From contig CANQUH010000008.1 of the NCBI GenBank assembly GCA_947626965.1, positions 1 to 50,312 of the forward strand: a DNA stretch of 50,312 nt, written 5' to 3'. Both the position numbers and the translations under genes were made by a program. This DNA comes from an uncultured Lachnospiraceae bacterium (GTDB lineage Bacteria > Bacillota > Clostridia > Lachnospirales > Lachnospiraceae). Each line of letters begins with the position of its first letter. Position 1 is the stretch's first letter. This document shows, in pieces, positions 12,262-49,278 of this stretch. Below the pieces are notes generated by a model that was not told the DNA's origin, ran no database searches, and saw only the letters and a program-made list of their open reading frames with translations.

Positions 12262-12369
12262 AGTAATTCTCCTTATCCGTTCTTTGATTCCCGCAAACAA
12301 TGAATCACCGCATGCCCAGGACCTCTTTCGGACATATATCATTTCCGTTTTGCGGGCTCTCCTGACCAT

Positions 12370-12501
12370 GTTACTGTTCACTCCGTGCCCAGTAACATAC
12401 AGTTTGGGCATGTAAATTCGCTTCGCGAAGCCCAAACTGTCATTTGACTCATGTTCTTACGGCCTCAGCAGCAAGTGCTTCGGCCTGGTCTGAACTGTAA
12501 C
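12370..12501. mobile_element. 132-bp MITE-like element with 8-bp target duplication
   Basis: Ends GTTACTGTTCA (12370) and TGAACTGTAAC (to 12501) are inverted repeats with one mismatch. Flush direct repeats CTGACCAT lie at 12362-12369 and 12502-12509. The left 18 bases match the end of the 144-bp element at 47366. The interior differs and holds a hairpin, AGTTTGGGC paired with GCCCAAACT. It carries no gene and lies just upstream of aroC. Confidence 0.7.
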
Positions 12502-12611
12502 CTGACCATGCAACAGCGTACCAGAATCTGAAAAAGATTGCAAGCAGTTTGCCGGAATTTGCATATAATAGCAGTAGAATTTTTCATTGGTTTCACTGGA
12601 GTGAGAGGATT

Positions 12612-41038: not shown

Positions 41039-41060
41039 TTCTGCAAGTAATGATTCGGTG

Positions 41061-41204
41061 GTTACAGTTCACCCTCCCACCGAGTTCGAGGTGATTTCCG
41101 GACAAAATGTCCGGAAATCCCGAGGTCTGAGGCGCGAAATACCACGAAAGTGGCATTTCTGTGCATCGCGGAGCGTTGTTGCTGGTCACGGAGTGAACAG
41201 TAAC
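41061..41204. mobile_element. 144-bp MITE-like element, copy 1
   Basis: Terminal inverted repeats GTTACAGTTCAC and GTGAACAGTAAC are perfect but for one base. The flanks ATTCGGTG (41053-41060) and ATCCGGTG (41205-41212) form an 8-bp target duplication with one change. The interior has hairpins TTTCCGGACA/TGTCCGGAAA and CCAC/GTGG. The same-length copy at 47366 lies in the opposite orientation. No gene inside. Confidence 0.8.
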
Positions 41205-41278
41205 ATCCGGTGTCCCTGTCCTGAATGCCGGCGGCACTCATCAGCACCGGTCAGGACGAAGCAAAAGTCTCAGAATCA

Positions 41279-42673
41279 TCATATGATAATATATTTCAGA
41301 ATGAACAGCACGGCCAGCACATACATCAGCACACTGATCTTCTTTTCTTTATACTTGCCCGTCACAAGATTGATAACGACATAAGAGATAATTCCCATGG
41401 AAATTCCCTCAGAGATACTGTACATAAACGGCATGGCAATGATACAGATATAGCATGGGATCGCCTCCGTATAGTCGGAAAAATTAATTTTCACGATCGA
41501 TACCATCATCAGAAATCCGACAACTACAAGGGCCGGAGCTGTCGCAAACGACGGTATGGCGAGGAAAATCGGGGAGAGGAACAGTGACAGACCGAACAGG
41601 ATCGCCGCGACTACCGCGGTAAGGCCGGTCCTTCCGCCTTCGGCTACGCCGGAAGCGCTCTCCACAAAAGTCGTTGTCGTCGAAGTTCCGAAAACAGCGC
41701 CGAGACATGTGCCGATCGCGTCAGACAGCAGCGCGCCGCGGATCCTCGGCAGTTTGCCGTCCTTATCCAGCATATCCGCCTTGGAAGCGACTCCAATCAG
41801 AGTTCCAAGCGTATCAAACATATCCACAAACAGAAAAGCAAACAGAACCGCAACAAAGTCCAGGGATAAGACTTTCGAGAAATCAAGCTGCATCAGCGTT
41901 GGCCTCATATCACGGATTCCAAAACCGCTGGAGAAATCCGGAAACATACTGTAAAATCCTGCCGCCGCATCCGGACGATATATTCCGATAAGCTGGCAGA
42001 TCATTCCGAGAACCCAGGTGATCAGAATTCCCCAGAGAATGCTCCCCTTTACATTTTTGACAGTAAGAATGCCGGTAATCAAAATCCCAAGCAGGGCAAG
42101 CACCACAGTGATGCCCTCCGTTGTAAATGTTCCGGACTCGATCGAAGACTTAAACGAGTAGAGGGAAACAAGCGTAGAGCTGTCCACCACCACGTGCGCG
42201 TTCTGCAGTCCGATAAAAGCAATGAAAAAGCCGATTCCCACGGACACCGCATGTTTCAGATTCATTGGAATTGAGTTGAAAATGGCCTCTCTCACATTTG
42301 TCAGGGAGAGCAGGATAAAGATTACACCTTCCATAAACACGGCCGCAAGAGCCATCTGCCAGGTATATCCCATCTGCATAACGACTGTATAGGTAAAGTA
42401 CGCATTCAGCCCCATGCCGGGTGCAAGTACGAAGGGATAGTTGGCGAGAAGCGCCATCAGAAGTGTGGCCACACAGGCCGCAAGAGCTGTTGCGGTAAAG
42501 ACAGCGCCGCTGTCCATACCCGCGGCCGAGAGAATGCTCGGATTGACCGCCAGAATATACGCCATGGTCATAAATGTCGTGATTCCGGCCATGACCTCTG
42601 TTCTGACATCTGTGCCGCTGTCTTTCAGGTGAAACCATTTCTCGAGAATTCCTGCGTTTTCTTTGGTTTTCAT
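41279..42673 (-). CDS. NCS2 family purine/xanthine permease
   Basis: A 464-residue membrane transporter with 12-14 hydrophobic segments, NCS2/AzgA type. Seen: TDVRTEVMAGITTFMTMAYIL at the start (read in parts), the conserved LAPGMGLNAYFTY, NLKHAVSVGIGFFIAFIGL, FVDMFDTLGTLIG, TTTFVESASGVAEGGRTGLTA and SIVKINFSD near the end. AzgA-type members carry adenine, guanine or hypoxanthine with protons; the exact substrate cannot be called. ATG 42673 has AGGAGGAGG upstream. Its leader is only about 36 bases, too short for a purine riboswitch. Transcribed away from the RCC1 gene. Confidence 0.9.
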   Translation of the reverse strand: MKTKENAGILEKWFHLKDSGTDVRTEVMAGITTFMTMAYILAVNPSILSAAGMDSGAVFTATALAACVATLLMALLANYPFVLAPGMGLNAYFTYTVVMQMGYTWQMALAAVFMEGVIFILLSLTNVREAIFNSIPMNLKHAVSVGIGFFIAFIGLQNAHVVVDSSTLVSLYSFKSSIESGTFTTEGITVVLALLGILITGILTVKNVKGSILWGILITWVLGMICQLIGIYRPDAAAGFYSMFPDFSSGFGIRDMRPTLMQLDFSKVLSLDFVAVLFAFLFVDMFDTLGTLIGVASKADMLDKDGKLPRIRGALLSDAIGTCLGAVFGTSTTTTFVESASGVAEGGRTGLTAVVAAILFGLSLFLSPIFLAIPSFATAPALVVVGFLMMVSIVKINFSDYTEAIPCYICIIAMPFMYSISEGISMGIISYVVINLVTGKYKEKKISVLMYVLAVLFILKYIII

Positions 42674-42715
42674 TTTTCCTCCTCCTGAAAATAAAAATTT
42701 TATAAAGACTGTATA

Positions 42716-42744
42716 AGTATACCAGATGTTACCGGAATTAGCAA
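42716..42744 (-). promoter_or_regulatory. Promoter of the NCS2 permease
   Basis: On the minus strand TTGCTA (42744-42739), 17-base spacer, TATACT (42721-42716), ending about 43 bases before ATG 42673. Confidence 0.6.
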
Positions 42745-42782
42745 ACAATGATTCAAAAAGAGAAACAGATTCTCGGCATATA

Positions 42783-42812
42783 TTGACAGAAGACATAAGA
42801 GATAAGTATAAT
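42783..42812 (+). promoter_or_regulatory. Promoter of the RCC1-repeat gene
   Basis: TTGACA (42783-42788), 18-base spacer, TATAAT (42807-42812), 60 bases before ATG 42872. Confidence 0.7.
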
Positions 42813-42871
42813 AAAATAGTCAATTTAATGCAGAACAACAAAAATCTGCTAAAAAAGAGGAGGAATTTGTA

Positions 42872-44278
42872 ATGTATGGGAAGAGAAAAACACTGACACT
42901 CAGGACGATTATAGGAATATTTCTGACGATGTTTCTGCTTTGCGTCCTTCCGCAGCACAGTGCAGCGGAAGGAATCCAGCAGATCTGTCTGGGAGGGAAC
43001 CACAGTGCGGCACTGAAATCAGACGGTTCCCTCTGGATGTGGGGAAACAATAGTTACGGTCAGCTGGGAAATAACAGTACCACAGACAGCAATACACCGG
43101 TACAGGTTATGACCGGGGTAAAACAGGTCAGCCTGGGTAGCGAACACAGTGCAGCAGTCAAAAAAGATGGCAGCCTCTGGGTGTGGGGGAGGAATATTTA
43201 TGGACAAGTAGGAAATGGCGCTGTTTTGAACAGCATCACTCCTGAAAAAATTATGACCGGGGTGAAACAGGTCAGCCTGGGTGGAAATTACAGTGCGGCA
43301 CTGAAGACAGATGGTTCTCTCTGGATGTGGGGAAGCAATATTTATGGTCAGCTGGGAAATGGCAGTAACACAGACAGCAGAACACCGATACAGGTTATGA
43401 CCAACGTAAAACAGATCTGTCTGGGACTGTATCACAGCGCAGCAATAAAAACAGATGGTTCCCTCTGGATGTGGGGAGAAAACAATGCTGCCCAGCTGGG
43501 AAACAACAGTTTTTCAAACAGCAATACTCCGATAAAAGTTATGACCGGAGTCAAACAGGTCAGTCTGGGAAATAAGCACAGCGCAGCGGTAACTCAGGAT
43601 GGTTCTCTTTGGATGTGGGGAGATGGCTCTTCTGGTCAGATAGGAGATGGCTCTTCTGGAATGACTACTGCTGTTGGATATGGCGTATATATCAAGACCC
43701 CGATAAAACTTATGACCGGGGTAAAACAGGTCAACCTGGGTGGGTCTCACAGTGCGGCGATAAAAGCGGATGGTTCTCTCTGGATGTGGGGATTTAACTA
43801 TTCTGGTCAGGTGGGAAACGGCGTGTCCGGCATTGTTGGATACTGGGGAGCCCACAGTACCACACCAGAGAAAATTATGGATGGAGTGAAAGAAGTCAAT
43901 CTGGGAAGTCTTCACAGCGCGGCGGTAAAAACGAACGGCTCTCTCTGGACGTGGGGAAACAATGAAAAGGGCCAGCTGGGAAATGGCAGTAACAAAAACA
44001 GCAGTACCCCGCTGGAAATCAGGCTGCCTGCTTCCAGCACGTTAAAAACAAACATCGGGAAATGTAAGATCACCCTGTCCAAAAAGAAATATACCTATAC
44101 AGGAAAAGCAATCAAGCCGCTCCCCACAGTAAAATACAATGGCAAAACGTTAAAAAACAAGATCGATTACACGCTCTCCTACAAGAATAACAAAAAGAAG
44201 GGATCAGCGACAATTGTGATCAAGGGAAAAGGCGCATATACCGGGCAAAGTCAGATAAAGTTTACAATCAAAAAGTAA
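42872..44278 (+). CDS. Secreted RCC1-repeat beta-propeller protein
   Basis: A 468-residue secreted protein. The N-terminus has a signal peptide ending PQHSAAEG. Seven RCC1-type repeats of about 48-58 residues follow, each with LG..HSAA, DGSLWMWG (or close) and a GQLGNG turn, enough for one closed seven-bladed propeller. The C-terminal 75 residues form an Ig-like/stalk domain with YTGKAIKPLPTVKYNGK and GKGAYTGQ, common at the ends of clostridial wall proteins. Bacterial RCC1 proteins bind proteins or sugars; the role here is unknown. AGAGGAGG precedes ATG 42872. Confidence 0.85.
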   Translation: MYGKRKTLTLRTIIGIFLTMFLLCVLPQHSAAEGIQQICLGGNHSAALKSDGSLWMWGNNSYGQLGNNSTTDSNTPVQVMTGVKQVSLGSEHSAAVKKDGSLWVWGRNIYGQVGNGAVLNSITPEKIMTGVKQVSLGGNYSAALKTDGSLWMWGSNIYGQLGNGSNTDSRTPIQVMTNVKQICLGLYHSAAIKTDGSLWMWGENNAAQLGNNSFSNSNTPIKVMTGVKQVSLGNKHSAAVTQDGSLWMWGDGSSGQIGDGSSGMTTAVGYGVYIKTPIKLMTGVKQVNLGGSHSAAIKADGSLWMWGFNYSGQVGNGVSGIVGYWGAHSTTPEKIMDGVKEVNLGSLHSAAVKTNGSLWTWGNNEKGQLGNGSNKNSSTPLEIRLPASSTLKTNIGKCKITLSKKKYTYTGKAIKPLPTVKYNGKTLKNKIDYTLSYKNNKKKGSATIVIKGKGAYTGQSQIKFTIKK

Positions 44279-44292
44279 ATGTAGATTTGAAA

Positions 44293-44340
44293 AGGGGGAT
44301 GTCTAAAACAGGCACCCCCTGTAAATTTTAACAGAAGGGA
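44293..44340 (+). terminator. Weak terminator after the RCC1 gene
   Basis: AGGGGG (44293-44298) pairs with CCCCCT (44325-44330) and is followed by TTTT. The loop is long, so strength is uncertain and readthrough into the next gene is possible. Confidence 0.5.
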
Positions 44341-44350
44341 TATCGAAAAT

Positions 44351-45301
44351 ATGTCAGATAAAGAATTAAAACCCAAGTCATTTCGGATTGACGATCTCAC
44401 CGCGGAACGTTTCCGGAAAATCGCGGAAGAAACAGGCGGAAATCAGCAGCAGACCCTTGCCCGTCTCATAGACACCTATGAAACACAGAAAAGTCAGGAA
44501 GAACTGCCGCAAAAAAGAGCCGATATTGACCAGATGGACGAATATCTCCAGGCAATCAGACTCAAATATCTTAGTATCCTTGCGGACAACATCCATCAGG
44601 AAGAAATTATGAAAGCAAAACTGGCCGCGAAGATGGAAAAACAGGATACAGAAATAGAAGCATTGAAAAAGCAGATCCAGGATGCAAAACAGGCTGGAGA
44701 ATCCATGGCCGGAGAAATGAAAAAGACGACAGAAAAACTCAGCCAGACAAAAGAGGAGCTCCAGAATGCGAAAGCTCAGCTTGCAGATAAAGAGAAACTG
44801 AACCAGGAACTGCAGGAGTCTAAACAGAAACTGCAGGAGTCTAACGTTTCCCTGCAGCTCCAAATCAAAGCAATGCAGGAAACAATTAATTTGGATACCG
44901 AAAAGAGAAATGAAATATATAAAGAGATGGAATCCCTACAAAATAAATTTTCAGAAATGCAAAAAGAAAAAAAGAATCTTGAGAATCAGCTGGAACAGGA
45001 AAAAGTTAAAGCACAGATACAGGAACAGCAGGCAGAAATCCGCCTCAGCAGAACCTTGCTGGAACAGGAGAAAAACTTCCAGGAACAGATTCACAGGCAG
45101 ACCGCTGAAAATCTGGCTGAAGTCGCCAGATATCAGCAAATGTATCGGGAGCTTCTTGAACAGATGAAAACGCAGGCGGCGGCCGCAAACGCAGAGCAGA
45201 CTGCCGAGTCAAAGCCAAACAAGCCGGAAACTGCGGAATCAGAGCTTTCCGAGGCAGTATCTGCTTCTGTCGGGAACGCTGAAAAAGAAAATTCTGTGTG
45301 A
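44351..45301 (+). CDS. Ribbon-helix-helix DNA-binding/coiled-coil protein (KfrA-like layout)
   Basis: A 316-residue protein. Residues 8-50 match a ribbon-helix-helix fold: strand KSFRIDD, helix LTAERFRKIAEETG, then NQQQTLARLIDTYE. The rest, to about residue 275, is nearly continuous coiled coil (heptads rich in Glu, Gln, Lys, Leu) with a disordered Ala/Glu/Ser tail. DNA-binding head plus long coil resembles plasmid KfrA proteins and some chromosome-organising factors, though the head differs. No partition genes are adjacent. AGAAGGGA precedes ATG 44351. Function unknown; DNA binding is inferred from fold. Confidence 0.6.
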   Translation: MSDKELKPKSFRIDDLTAERFRKIAEETGGNQQQTLARLIDTYETQKSQEELPQKRADIDQMDEYLQAIRLKYLSILADNIHQEEIMKAKLAAKMEKQDTEIEALKKQIQDAKQAGESMAGEMKKTTEKLSQTKEELQNAKAQLADKEKLNQELQESKQKLQESNVSLQLQIKAMQETINLDTEKRNEIYKEMESLQNKFSEMQKEKKNLENQLEQEKVKAQIQEQQAEIRLSRTLLEQEKNFQEQIHRQTAENLAEVARYQQMYRELLEQMKTQAAAANAEQTAESKPNKPETAESELSEAVSASVGNAEKENSV

Positions 45302-45389
45302 GACTTTACCTCATTTCAGCAAAATTACAGGTGCGTGAAATTTGTAATACTAAAATTTACTTAAAAACCTATAAAATAAAATGAAAAAT

Positions 45390-45425
45390 AACGTATTGCA
45401 TAGTAGTGTAATACGTTTTTTATTT
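45390..45425 (+). terminator. Terminator after the coiled-coil gene
   Basis: AACGTATT (45390-45397) pairs with AATACGTT (45410-45417) with further wobble pairs, followed by TTTTTTATTTT. Confidence 0.75.
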
Positions 45426-45727
45426 TAAAAAATATCATAACTATTTATTATAAAAAAATAAAATTGTCTCATTTCGGGTTCATAGGGAGTTCAAAGGCAA
45501 TGGATGACCTCCAGTATTTCATATCACCTCTTCAAATTATATGTTTATGAGATAAAATAAAATTATAAGCAGGATTAAAACAGATAATTATGTTTATTAA
45601 ATTATATAAAATTTAGTTTATATTATTTATACGTAAAATTATCTATTGGAAAAATTACTGTTTGTCGTATAGATAAACTATAGTGTGAAAAATACTAAGA
45701 AAACAACATTTTATATGAAAATAAAAA

Positions 45728-45756
45728 TTGCCAGACTGAAAAAATCCAGTTATAAT
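45728..45756 (+). promoter_or_regulatory. Promoter of the AAA/DUF4143 gene
   Basis: TTGCCA (45728-45733), 17-base spacer, TATAAT (45751-45756), about 50 bases before ATG 45807. Confidence 0.65.
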
Positions 45757-45806
45757 ACAGATGAAAGAAAAAACAGCTTTCCGACAGAAGAAAGGCGGAA
45801 TTAGAG

Positions 45807-47165
45807 ATGTCAAGAGATTTAAAAAGAACCGTATACGACCGGTTTTGGGAGTGGAAACAACGGTCAAACCACGGTACACTGGAAATTTCCGGCGCAAGAC
45901 AGGTCGGAAAGACCTATCTGGTAAATAAATTTGCGGATGAAGCATATGCCCGGAAGGTTTATATCAATCTCCAGTCCCTGGATGGCGAACTGTTCCTCGA
46001 ACGTTATCATAATCTTGTGAATGAGATGAAAAACGGAAAGCGTATGGAAAATCCGCTGAGAGAACTTTTGCTGTGGCAGGAACCCTCCTTCGTGGATGCG
46101 GATGACACGGTCGTTATCATCGACGAGATTCAGGAATCTGCTGAGATTTACAACCGGATCCGTGAATTTACGCGCACCCTGAAAAGTGACTTCATTGTAA
46201 CAGGCAGTTATCTCGGAAGGATACTGAACCGGGAATTCAAATATTCGGCGGGAGATACGTTTTCTATCGAACTATATACGCTGAGTTTTGAAGAATTTCT
46301 GATGGCTGCCGGAAAATATGAGGAATTCATAGAATTGGATCTGTTCGGTGCAGGGGAAGATCACATCTATAAGGAATTGGATGATCTGTATCGGGTTTAC
46401 TGCCAGATCGGGGGCTATCCGGCCGTAGTATTAAAGTATCTGGAAAATTCTTCCCTGGAAGAATGTCAGGAAGAACTGCTGCGCATTATCCGGCTGTTTA
46501 CAAATGAAAGCCGCAGATATTTTGAGGATATCCTGGATTATGAAGCCTATACAAATCTCTTCTGCAGCATTGCACGCCTGCTGGCAAAAGAGAAAAAAGG
46601 ACTGGAAGAAGACAGCTTCAGTGAGGAGCTTAAGGGGATCATCACAAAAGAGTATTCCAGTAACCTTTCCAAAGCATCCGTGAACCGCGCGATCGACTGG
46701 CTTTACAGTTCCGGTATTGTAGGATTCGCGGGAAAAGTAATAAACTGCAATCTTCTGGATTTTCGCGCAAAGGCCAGATGTTATTTCATGGATACGGGAC
46801 TCGCCAGTTATTTTATACAGCAGATTGGCTGCAGCGAGGCAGAACTGGCAGGAGCCGTCAGTGAAACCTTTGTCTATCTGGATCTGAAACGGAGGATGGA
46901 CCGCCCCGGCAGTCTCTCCTTTGAGATGCCGGCATTTGCCACTTATGGAAACGGAGAACTGGATTTCTTTACAAAATCCCTGCGAACCGGAAAAATCTAC
47001 GGAATTGAAGTAAAAGCAGGGAAAAATGCAGGAAAGACAGCCGCCAGGGCCCTGAAAGAAGGAAAAATCGACATTCTCCTGTATGTGAAAGGCAATACGC
47101 ACGGGGGAAAAGAAGGGAATATTTATACTGTTCCAATCTATGGGATTTCCAGGGTTGCACTTTAG
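45807..47165 (+). CDS. AAA_14/DUF4143 ATP-binding protein
   Basis: A 452-residue protein. The AAA domain has Walker A GARQVGKTYL (29-38) and Walker B TVVIIDEIQE (Asp106, Glu107), a sensor-like IVTGSYLG, and a winged-helix part. The C-terminal DUF4143 region has NGELDFF and GIEVKAG, a D...ExK pattern like PD-(D/E)XK nucleases. These proteins are frequent, often horizontally moved genes with unproven functions; a nuclease or signalling role has been suggested. It stands alone with its own promoter. Confidence 0.88.
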   Translation: MSRDLKRTVYDRFWEWKQRSNHGTLEISGARQVGKTYLVNKFADEAYARKVYINLQSLDGELFLERYHNLVNEMKNGKRMENPLRELLLWQEPSFVDADDTVVIIDEIQESAEIYNRIREFTRTLKSDFIVTGSYLGRILNREFKYSAGDTFSIELYTLSFEEFLMAAGKYEEFIELDLFGAGEDHIYKELDDLYRVYCQIGGYPAVVLKYLENSSLEECQEELLRIIRLFTNESRRYFEDILDYEAYTNLFCSIARLLAKEKKGLEEDSFSEELKGIITKEYSSNLSKASVNRAIDWLYSSGIVGFAGKVINCNLLDFRAKARCYFMDTGLASYFIQQIGCSEAELAGAVSETFVYLDLKRRMDRPGSLSFEMPAFATYGNGELDFFTKSLRTGKIYGIEVKAGKNAGKTAARALKEGKIDILLYVKGNTHGGKEGNIYTVPIYGISRVAL

Positions 47166-47170
47166 AAGAA

Positions 47171-47296
47171 TTCGATAGAGCCGGAAGCATATCCGTAAAG
47201 TCTTTCTCTTTAAAAACTCCTGAGATCACAAGTGTGTCTCTTGTAGGATCTGGAAAAGCGCTGATTAAATGGACACGGACTCCTACTGCGGTATGA
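47171..47296 (+). pseudogene. Possible remnant of a fibronectin-III/Ig-like domain gene
   Basis: In one frame the sequence reads SLKTPEITSVSLVGSG then KALIKWTRTPTAV and a TGA at 47294-47296. The pattern (Pro, then SVS..GSGK..I.W) resembles the opening of Fn3 domains in clostridial surface proteins, but there is no start codon, no ribosome site and no rest of the domain. A decayed fragment is the most likely reading; chance is possible. Confidence 0.35.
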
Positions 47297-47365
47297 CCGG
47301 AATGGCTTGGAATGTCGCAAAGCACCCTGCTGTATCACAAACAGATTATAACAAGTCATCAAAGC

Positions 47366-47509
47366 GTTACTGTTCACTCCGTGACCAGCAACAACGCTCC
47401 GCGATGCACAGAAATGCTGCATTTGCAGCATTTCGCGCCTCAGACCTCGGGATTTCCGAACAAAATGTCCGGAAATCACCTCGAACTCGATGGGGGAGTG
47501 AACTGTAAC
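47366..47509. mobile_element. 144-bp MITE-like element, copy 2 (inverted)
   Basis: Inverted copy of 41061-41204 with termini GTTACTGTTCAC and GTGAACTGTAAC. Flush 9-bp direct repeats CATCAAAGC lie at 47357-47365 and 47510-47518, a perfect target duplication. The internal hairpin is AAATGCTGC/GCAGCATTT, perfectly paired. With the remnant before it, it fills the 47166-47549 gap. Confidence 0.85.
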
Positions 47510-47549
47510 CATCAAAGCTCTCTAAAGTAACAGAAAAAACATTCTTTCA

Positions 47550-47592: not shown

Positions 47593-47637
47593 GCAGCCGC
47601 ACGGCCGTGTTCTCAATGGATGTGCGGCTGCTTTTTT
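47593..47637 (+). terminator. Leader terminator (attenuator candidate)
   Basis: GCAGCCGCAC (47593-47602) pairs perfectly with GTGCGGCTGC (47622-47631), followed by six T. It lies between the promoter and the ATG at 47683, so most transcripts would stop here unless the hairpin is prevented from forming. Confidence 0.65.
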
Positions 47638-47682
47638 CGAAACCGGAAACGCAGCAGATTAAAAGAAAGGAAAGAGAGAGTT

Positions 47683-49278
47683 ATGAAGAAACTGCAAAAA
47701 ATTGCCGCCTGCATGTTTGTCCTGGCAGTGCTGATGATCCTGCCAGTGATGCCGGCGCAGGCAAAGACAAAAGTGACAACGGCCAAAAGCTATGGTCTGA
47801 AGAATGTAAAGAACGCAAAAGAACGTCCTGGCACATGGGTCAAGGAAAACGGAAAATCCTGCTTTAAGCCCAGTGACGGCAGTTCTGTCACGAACAGATG
47901 GGTCAGTGTAAACGACAACATTTATTATCTGGATGAGGATGGATACCGGGTATCGGGATGGATTTCCTACAATGACAACCTCTATTACACGAACGAGAGC
48001 GGAAAACTTCGGACAGGCTGGCTGAAGCTGGACGGGAAAAAATATTACCTAAAAGAAGACAATGGCCGTCTGGCGAGAGGTTTTTACAAAGTTGGAGAAA
48101 ATACATATTTCTTTTCTCTCGAAAAGGGTGTTATGCGGACAGGCTGGCTGAAACTGGACGGAAGAACATACTATCTGGGAGAAAGCAACGGCAGACTGAC
48201 GACAGGCTTTCGTACCATCGGAGAAGACACGTATTTCTTTTCCACGATAAAAGGCATCATGTGGACGGGCTGGCTGAAACTGGACGGAAAGACGTACTAC
48301 ATGATGGAGAACGGAAAAATGGCGAAAGGTCTCTTCAGACTGGGAAATGTTTATTATTATTTTTCCCCGGCAGACGGTGTCATGCAGACAGGCTGGCAGA
48401 CGGTTGACGGAATCCGCCGTTATTTTGATCCTCGTACCGGAGCTATGGCAGTCTCCAAATGGATGCAGGAGGGAGACGACTATCACTATCTGAATGCCTC
48501 CGGCGCCATGGTGAAGTCCGGCTGGGTGACTGAGGGAGACAAGAAATATTATATGGACGACAATGGCGTGAAAACAACCGGTACAGTCCAGAACAACGGA
48601 AAAGTTTATCATTTTGATGAAGACGGAGTGTACCTTCCGAATCTTCTCGGCGGAATCATTGACGAGTCAAAACCCATGGTAGCTCTGACTTTTGACGACG
48701 GTCCTGGAAAATATACCGGAAGACTTCTGGATTGCCTGAAAAAATACAATGTGAAGGCCAGCTTCTTCATGGTAGGCTACTGTGTACCGCTCTATCCGGA
48801 TTCTGTAAAGCGTATGGCGGAGTATGGCTGCGACCTGGGAAATCACTCTTACGATCATCCGTATTTTACAAGACTTTCCAGCGCGTCAAGAAAGTCGCAG
48901 GTATCGAGAGCGAGTGAAAATATCAAAAAGGCATGCGGAAAGTATCCAACGCTGTTCCGGCTTCCGTACGGTGATGGAGCCTTCAGCAAAACCGTATTAT
49001 CCGACATTGGTCTTCCTTCGATCTTCTGGTCGCTTGGCACGCACGATTTTCTGCATCTGAATGATTCACAGTTTACAGTCAATGAAGTATTGAATAATGT
49101 AAAAGACGGCGATATCGTTCTGATGCATGACAGCCATTATTCCACTGTGGTCGCCGCGGAGAAGATCATTCCAGCGCTGATCAACCGCGGATATCAGCTT
49201 GTAACGGTCACCGAACTGGCAAAATACAAAGGAAAAACAACACTGCAGGCCGGGAAGACATATACTGGCTTTCACTAA
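47683..49278 (+). CDS. Secreted wall-binding polysaccharide deacetylase
   Basis: A 531-residue protein. Signal peptide residues 1-27 (ends MPAQA). Then about eight to ten cell-wall-binding (choline-binding-like) repeats of about 20 residues, with GWLKLDGKKYYL and similar, rich in Gly/Trp/Tyr. A NodB domain starts near residue 325: TFDDGPGKYTG (metal-binding Asp-Asp), NHSYDHP (His and His), LFRLPYGDG and VLMHDSH. The family removes acetyl groups from peptidoglycan or other glycans. In the motif where D-W is usual it has WSLGTHDFLH. ATG 47683 follows AAAGGAAAG. Confidence 0.87.
   Translation: MKKLQKIAACMFVLAVLMILPVMPAQAKTKVTTAKSYGLKNVKNAKERPGTWVKENGKSCFKPSDGSSVTNRWVSVNDNIYYLDEDGYRVSGWISYNDNLYYTNESGKLRTGWLKLDGKKYYLKEDNGRLARGFYKVGENTYFFSLEKGVMRTGWLKLDGRTYYLGESNGRLTTGFRTIGEDTYFFSTIKGIMWTGWLKLDGKTYYMMENGKMAKGLFRLGNVYYYFSPADGVMQTGWQTVDGIRRYFDPRTGAMAVSKWMQEGDDYHYLNASGAMVKSGWVTEGDKKYYMDDNGVKTTGTVQNNGKVYHFDEDGVYLPNLLGGIIDESKPMVALTFDDGPGKYTGRLLDCLKKYNVKASFFMVGYCVPLYPDSVKRMAEYGCDLGNHSYDHPYFTRLSSASRKSQVSRASENIKKACGKYPTLFRLPYGDGAFSKTVLSDIGLPSIFWSLGTHDFLHLNDSQFTVNEVLNNVKDGDIVLMHDSHYSTVVAAEKIIPALINRGYQLVTVTELAKYKGKTTLQAGKTYTGFH

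Follow-up and report, generated by a model that had tools for sequence, protein, structure and literature searches.

To our knowledge, transposition in the ISBst12 group of the IS66 family of insertion sequences (ISs) is poorly characterised. In this study, we analysed 50,312 nucleotides of DNA from an uncultured Lachnospiraceae bacterium (assembly GCA_947626965.1, contig CANQUH010000008.1, positions 1 to 50,312; hereafter the window), which carries three miniature inverted-repeat transposable elements (MITEs), and we compared these MITEs with the IS66-type elements whose transposase very probably moves them. The passages of PMC12898284 that deal with ISDge4, an element of the ISBst12 group with a single open reading frame (ORF), give its ends as GTGACTACTCAGCA and GTAACTGCTCAGCA and describe an 8-bp repeat. 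The partner ISs reported here resemble the group, as portrayed in those passages, in their single transposase ORF, their GTAACTGCTCAG-type ends and their 8-bp direct repeat, and their proteins score above the Pfam PF03050 cut-off. In contrast, the window MITE is gene-less with ends GTTAC...TTCAC, and the partner proteins fall below the NCBIfam IS66 cut-off. Among bacterial MITEs, MITECca01 of Cardinium, as presented in an excerpt of PMC9769881, is likewise short and gene-less and has inverted ends in common with its parental IS. The MITEs studied here differ from the type outlined in that excerpt in their IS66-type partner, in having one end that is a self-contained 27-bp palindrome, and in an interior that was not seen in the partner IS.

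The MITE family and its insertion sites

Copy 1 (41061..41204, strand -) and copy 2 (47366..47509, strand +) are 144 bp each, lie in opposite orientation and are 90% identical (blastn); the first-pass annotation had located both correctly. It had also described shared 12-base inverted termini and flanking direct repeats of 8-9 bp. Inverted ends are present, but the end pairs GTTACAGTTCAC / GTTACTGTTCAC agree at 11 of 12 bases, not 12. The direct repeats were as described, with ATTCGGTG to the left of copy 1 (41053..41060) and ATCCGGTG to its right (41205..41212), 8 bp that match at 7/8, and with CATCAAAGC both left (47357..47365) and right (47510..47518) of copy 2, 9 bp that match at 9/9; these duplications are given without a strand. 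The A-end of copy 1 occupies 41061-41072 and its T-end lies on the right, while copy 2 has its T-end on the left and its A-end at 47498-47509. A third window copy, overlooked in the annotation, lies at 12370..12501 (strand +); it belongs to a 132-bp subfamily with a different interior and is flanked on both sides by CTGACCAT (12362..12369 and 12502..12509, no strand; 8/8). The interior of the window copies is non-coding and is crossed by chance ORFs only. At the Rfam gathering score no family matched the MITE, and the sole match in the window was a tRNA.

A blastn search with copy 1 against its own genome gave 50 matches (E<=0.001), a number that includes fragments of one copy or matches to its own palindrome. 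The end pattern GTTACNGTTCAC, with at most one mismatch, occurred 223 times in this genome, compared with 38 times for the reversed control pattern. From the stretches around the blastn matches and the listed end motifs, rather than from all 223 ends, we delimited 40 two-ended elements of 100-245 bp. An 8/8 duplication flanked 18 of these and a duplication of 7/8 or better flanked 26; one further element, window copy 2 with its 9/9 duplication, raised the total to 27/40. Shuffling the flanks among the 40 elements gave a mean of 0.72 at >=7/8 and a maximum of 6 (2000 shuffles). The genome-wide search suggested in the first-pass annotation has in this way yielded many copies, mostly with target duplications.

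The 144-bp sequence was matched in 15 of the 98 genomes searched (its own included; all of its own genus). A 20-base T-end pattern was found in at least 111 stretches of named genomes; among the 80 matches listed, the titles include Lachnospiraceae, Eisenbergiella, Acetatifactor, Murimonas and Anaerobium, and also Eubacterium, Clostridia and one Thermoflexaceae bin. The exact end motif was present in all seven T-end-bearing genomes searched, at 4 to 98 occurrences per genome, compared with 0 to 4 of the control motif. Plasmid records gave no match to the MITE, and phage records gave two partial matches only, with 33% coverage. The window elements are copies of a gene-less MITE family that is widespread in many gut Lachnospiraceae, and neither its end sequences nor a description of the family was found in the open-licence literature searched. 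At another locus (L113:1150-1423), two 133-bp MITEs stand in tandem, with AAGCTGAC present three times, once between them and once on either side.

An exact empty site was identified for a copy elsewhere in the same genome (L003, C54:5650). This copy lies between two GATTATTA, and in a relative (L151), whose flanks are about 92% identical, there is one GATTGTTA and no element. The closely related genome G007 lacks window copy 2 and has a single CATCAAAGC, but 67 extra bases lie immediately to its left, making this a near-empty site. G007, G030 and G006 all lack copy 1, the corresponding gap of 74 to 120 bases being too short for the MITE; its target could not be read in these genomes, whose flanks are too diverged. 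A lack of further copies, or empty sites without a single target copy, had been named beforehand as evidence against transposition, and neither was what we found.

The annotation had further remarked that the pair brackets about 6.2 kb of accessory genes. A composite transposon carrying the enclosed DNA would fit two inverted copies about 6.2 kb apart. However, the two copies sit in separate duplications, and the sequences on the outer sides of the pair, ATTCGGTG to the left of copy 1 and CATCAAAGC to the right of copy 2, do not match. Moreover, two of the enclosed genes, one for a xanthine/uracil-type permease (Pfam) and one for a coiled-coil protein that matches no Pfam family, stand in the same order in G007, where both MITEs are missing. 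In no genome was the whole 6.2-kb block seen to be relocated between outer flanks that match, although no search for the block as a whole was made. The probability of a composite transposon is, in our judgement, close to nil. Because the duplications of the copies differ and the enclosed gene order is kept without the MITEs, the bracketing of an accessory-gene unit, in a functional sense, was not borne out; the two window MITEs are independent insertions and do not delimit a mobile 6.2-kb unit.

The region contains three other genes of note. A gene for an RCC1-repeat protein (42872-44278) is absent at the matching place in G007, where its neighbours are 117 bp apart, and the G007 stretch matching an AAA_14/DUF4143 ATPase gene (45807-47165) has other sequence. 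The gene adjoining copy 2 (47620-49278) encodes choline-binding-type repeats joined to a polysaccharide deacetylase domain.

IS66-type elements with matching ends

The first-pass annotation had proposed that the MITEs were transposed in trans by an unseen transposase and had recommended a search for a transposase gene flanked by the same termini. Such genes were found in other genomes, but not in the assembly that contains the window. At locus L345, a complete 2358-bp element has the ends GTTACTGTTCACACCC and GTTACTGTTCAGACG, which match the MITE end at 12/12 and 11/12 bases, and is flanked on both sides by GCCGGAAT, a perfect 8-bp duplication. A single forward IS66-type ORF of 558 amino acids covers most of the 2358 bp, and the other ORFs of >=100 amino acids inside the element lie on the opposite strand only; locus L335 is similar. 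The L345 protein is the best relative (66% identity) of a transposase in G007, where a contig end (L330) encodes the last 267 amino acids of this IS66-type protein, with the end GTTACTGTTCACACGTCGGC after the coding sequence. Relatives of the G007 transposase were detected in 17 of the 200 genomes searched (same family). In G129, two contig ends bear both ends of another IS, with ATTGTATT outside each (8/8). The complete genome of Lachnospiraceae bacterium CE91-St56 contains, at L335, a further IS66-type element; its ends are GCAACAGTTCAGACGG/GTAACAGTTCAGACAG, and its duplication, CTAATTGGA, is 9 bp long (9/9). It is adjoined by a 105-bp MITE that shares these ends (GTAACWGTTCAGACG) and has TAATTGGA on both sides. 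The L335 ends represent a sister end type that differs from the ends of the window MITE.

Comparison of longer end sequences showed that the A-end consensus of the MITEs in the window's genome agrees with the IS ends at 16/17 bases (L346) and 15/17 bases (L345), and that 19/20 bases are shared between the G007 IS end and the T-end of a 166-bp MITE in G004. The three partner proteins scored 90.5, 64.2 and 76.7 bits against PF03050 (cut-off 23.1). Residues D330, D381 and E506 of L345 are invariant across three proteins and, at a guess, might be the DDE residues. No solved structure of a transposase relative was found at E<=0.01, and no relative was found in viral contigs; an unannotated phage record gave one transposase match with 63.5% identity.

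The copies with duplications, the exact and near-empty sites, and the IS66-type elements elsewhere with matching ends together support transposition of the MITE in trans. We consider it highly probable that the mover is the transposase of a single-ORF IS66-type (ISBst12-like) IS; its identity as the mover we infer, and it may either copy the MITE or cut it out. In the mechanism that we propose, the IS66-type DDE transposase (TnpC) would bind the shared ends GTTACWGTTCAC, about 16 bp on the A side, would act in trans and would pair the A-end of the MITE with its T-end. The MITE ends would be joined to the target at staggered strand cuts with a spacing of 8 bp (9 bp in some cases), and cuts at this spacing would give rise to the flanking duplications.

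Several results weigh against this assignment. Thirteen of the 40 MITE copies in the window's genome lack a duplication at >=7/8. The partner proteins scored 162, 130 and 119 against NCBIfam NF033517 (IS66), under the cut-off of 180. A search of the window's genome (assembly 89% complete, 413 contigs) gave no relative of the G007 transposase, and the IS66-type proteins that this genome does encode (3 matches) lack such ends. The G007 IS copy is without its left half, and a pattern search for that half (<=2 mismatches) gave only a 58-bp MITE. Three other ISs with similar paired ends (L349, L350 and L353) have no duplication, and IS6, ISL3, IS1595 and other families that make 8-bp duplications were not searched.

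The gap in the search of these families, together with the absence of the cognate IS from the window's own assembly, would also suit a mover from another family with 8-bp duplications, the IS66-type match then being convergence on a short motif. Against this, the end match extends to 16/17 and 19/20 bases, a genome closely related to that of the window carries a matching IS66-type end, and two IS66-type elements combine such ends with perfect duplications, each within one contig. In addition, none of the IS256-type (5) and IS4-type (22) loci had such ends plus a duplication. A mover from another family is improbable, and an IS66-type transposase is the preferred candidate.

Regarding the two families that were tried and rejected, PF00872 (IS256-type) is absent from the window's genome and present in 2 of 11 genomes searched, and 0 of 5 loci had such ends with a duplication; the same held for all 22 PF01609 (IS4-type) loci. 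One IS4-type locus, on contig C230, was attractive at first because a MITE end adjoins it, but this IS sits inside the MITE end and has different ends of its own and a 9-bp duplication, GGAGTGAAC. An IS4-type IS with ends CAATGTCATTWAGTTWA occupies the identical spot within a MITE T-end twice in the window's genome (C230:1986-3731, L246; C281:4421, L250), and it may prefer MITE ends as a target.

Hairpins and 27-bp solo palindromes

The MITE interior is a chain of hairpins that differs among subfamilies. The 27-bp T-end, consisting of an outer arm, a 3-base loop and an inner arm, is often kept across subfamilies, and copies of 152-154 bp carry a longer T-end variant. In copy 1 (strand -), the T-end palindrome lies at 41178..41204, with internal hairpins at 41136..41159 (helix 2 of the alignment) and 41093..41119 (helix 3); in copy 2 (strand +), the corresponding positions are 47366..47392, 47411..47434 and 47451..47477. 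We aligned 19 copies of 141-146 bp (the 2 from the window, 13 more from its genome, 2 from G007 and 2 from G035). Three hairpins were paired in 92.5% of cells, compared with 27-43% in slid versions. Twenty-eight cells were changed on both sides (shuffled mean 10.2) and the covariation score was 0.126 (shuffled 0.060), with 0 of 500 shuffles as high in either case. The two measures rated by the analysis tool as least prone to false signals showed no excess over shuffles, with 5 pairs having two-sided change (mean 4.3; 240/500) and 12 pair types (12.5; 432/500), indicating well-kept hairpins with few independent compensatory events. Single-strand folds of both 144-bp window copies had z-scores of -5.5 to -7.2.

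The T-end palindrome, GTTACTGTTCACTCCGTGACCAGTAAC, was also found without a MITE, in the CE91-St56 genome and elsewhere. We assembled 198 palindromes from the loci then examined (27 bases, up to 5 mismatches), a set that is not a census because most loci came from a scan in which 20 of the 27 bases were fixed. A repeat directly at the 27-bp unit reached >=7/8 in 17/198 and 8/8 in 9/198, with shuffled means of 0.2 and 0.04, respectively, and 7 of 9306 wrong-distance comparisons reached 7/8. In 104 of the 198, neither the 27-bp unit nor a longer element had a 7/8 repeat. A size tally of 86 elements with perfect repeats in these loci, allowing <=3 mismatches per end and including a few small elements of the sister end type, comprised 11 of 26-27 bp, 4 of 53-64 bp, 2 of 104-110 bp, 64 of 132-156 bp and 5 of 164-274 bp. 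In these loci, examined before the IS66 loci, no element of 275-6000 bp combined the two MITE ends with a perfect duplication, where copies exceeding the locus length were not detectable and pairs >400 bp with flanks of <3 different letters were dropped.

Seven solos from CE91-St56 (G098) had repeats of 8/8, 8/8, 7/8, 7/8, 6/8, 6/8 and 0/8. One solo (L189) lies inside another repeat family, 8 bp from the end of that repeat, with GTAACTAT on both sides; at this site 12 of 12 genus-mates have no MITE-type end, but they show other differences too. An exact empty site for a solo was sought and not found. In viral contigs the 27-bp palindrome occurred in 1 stretch, and its symmetric and chimeric forms in 0 each. 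The repeat interrupted at L189 (6858-6950) is itself dispersed; it is ~59 bp long, starts with GTAACTATTCAG, is present at many places in G098 and G102, and has tens of matches in Eisenbergiella-group genomes.

We favour the reading that the solos are deletion remnants of MITEs. The palindrome's inner arm and the far MITE end are near-identical direct repeats, so that slippage between them would reduce the MITE to a solo of exactly 27 bp that retains the original duplication, and the palindrome at L203 (repeat 5/8) has a chimeric arm, as slippage predicts. The other possibility is that the solos are mobile units themselves, for which the repeats directly at the 27-bp unit, far above their shuffled means, are an argument. 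Furthermore, all seven CE91-St56 solos, whose ends were picked without the inner-arm pattern, retain the asymmetric inner arm, which speaks against slippage because free slippage would sometimes replace that arm. The direct repeats offer a ready deletion route, however, and together with the chimeric arm of L203 they count against mobile solos; two transposase subunits bound on 27 bp would also seem sterically hard to accommodate. We regard mobility of the solos as rather doubtful. Equally tentatively, GTTACTGTTCACTCCGTGACCAGTAAC might be a complete transposable unit, with two transposon ends 3 bp apart that insert by IS66-type DDE chemistry with an 8-bp duplication, perhaps from an extruded cruciform.

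The strong hairpins, the small palindromic solo units and the intergenic positions recall repetitive extragenic palindromic (REP) sequences, which are 20-40-bp palindromes in many copies according to the portion of PMC3733652 devoted to them, and the elements could in principle have been spread by a REP-associated tyrosine transposase (RAYT) or a similar hairpin route. Unlike the REPs of that portion, the elements studied here have 8-bp target duplications, a DDE-type partner and ends GTTAC, with no GTAG tag; RAYT genes were not searched. We consider REP-like spread very improbable, and deletion of MITEs remains our preferred account of the solos. SDR elements of cyanobacteria (Elhai, 2008) are reportedly very small units of about 21-27 bp that appear mobile. 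The solos are alike in being very small and apparently mobile, but they have 8-bp duplications of varied sequence and constitute the end of a larger MITE. One of the cyanobacterial elements, SDR5, is said to insert inside HIP1, as mentioned in a citing paper (PMC4390886, in the part concerned with these repeats).

MITE repeats can be taken in error for borders that delimit a mobile gene cassette; the earlier remark on the 6.2 kb is an example. The IS66-type transposase is a proposed mover for a dense intergenic repeat class of common gut bacteria, and the ISBst12 group would gain natural minimal substrates in graded sizes of 27, 58, 132-154 and 269 bp. If the 27-bp palindrome were a complete transposable unit, it would rank with the smallest known units of mobile DNA, and the larger MITEs would have developed from it by growth around foreign hairpins; its jumping would raise the question of how small a DDE transposon can be.

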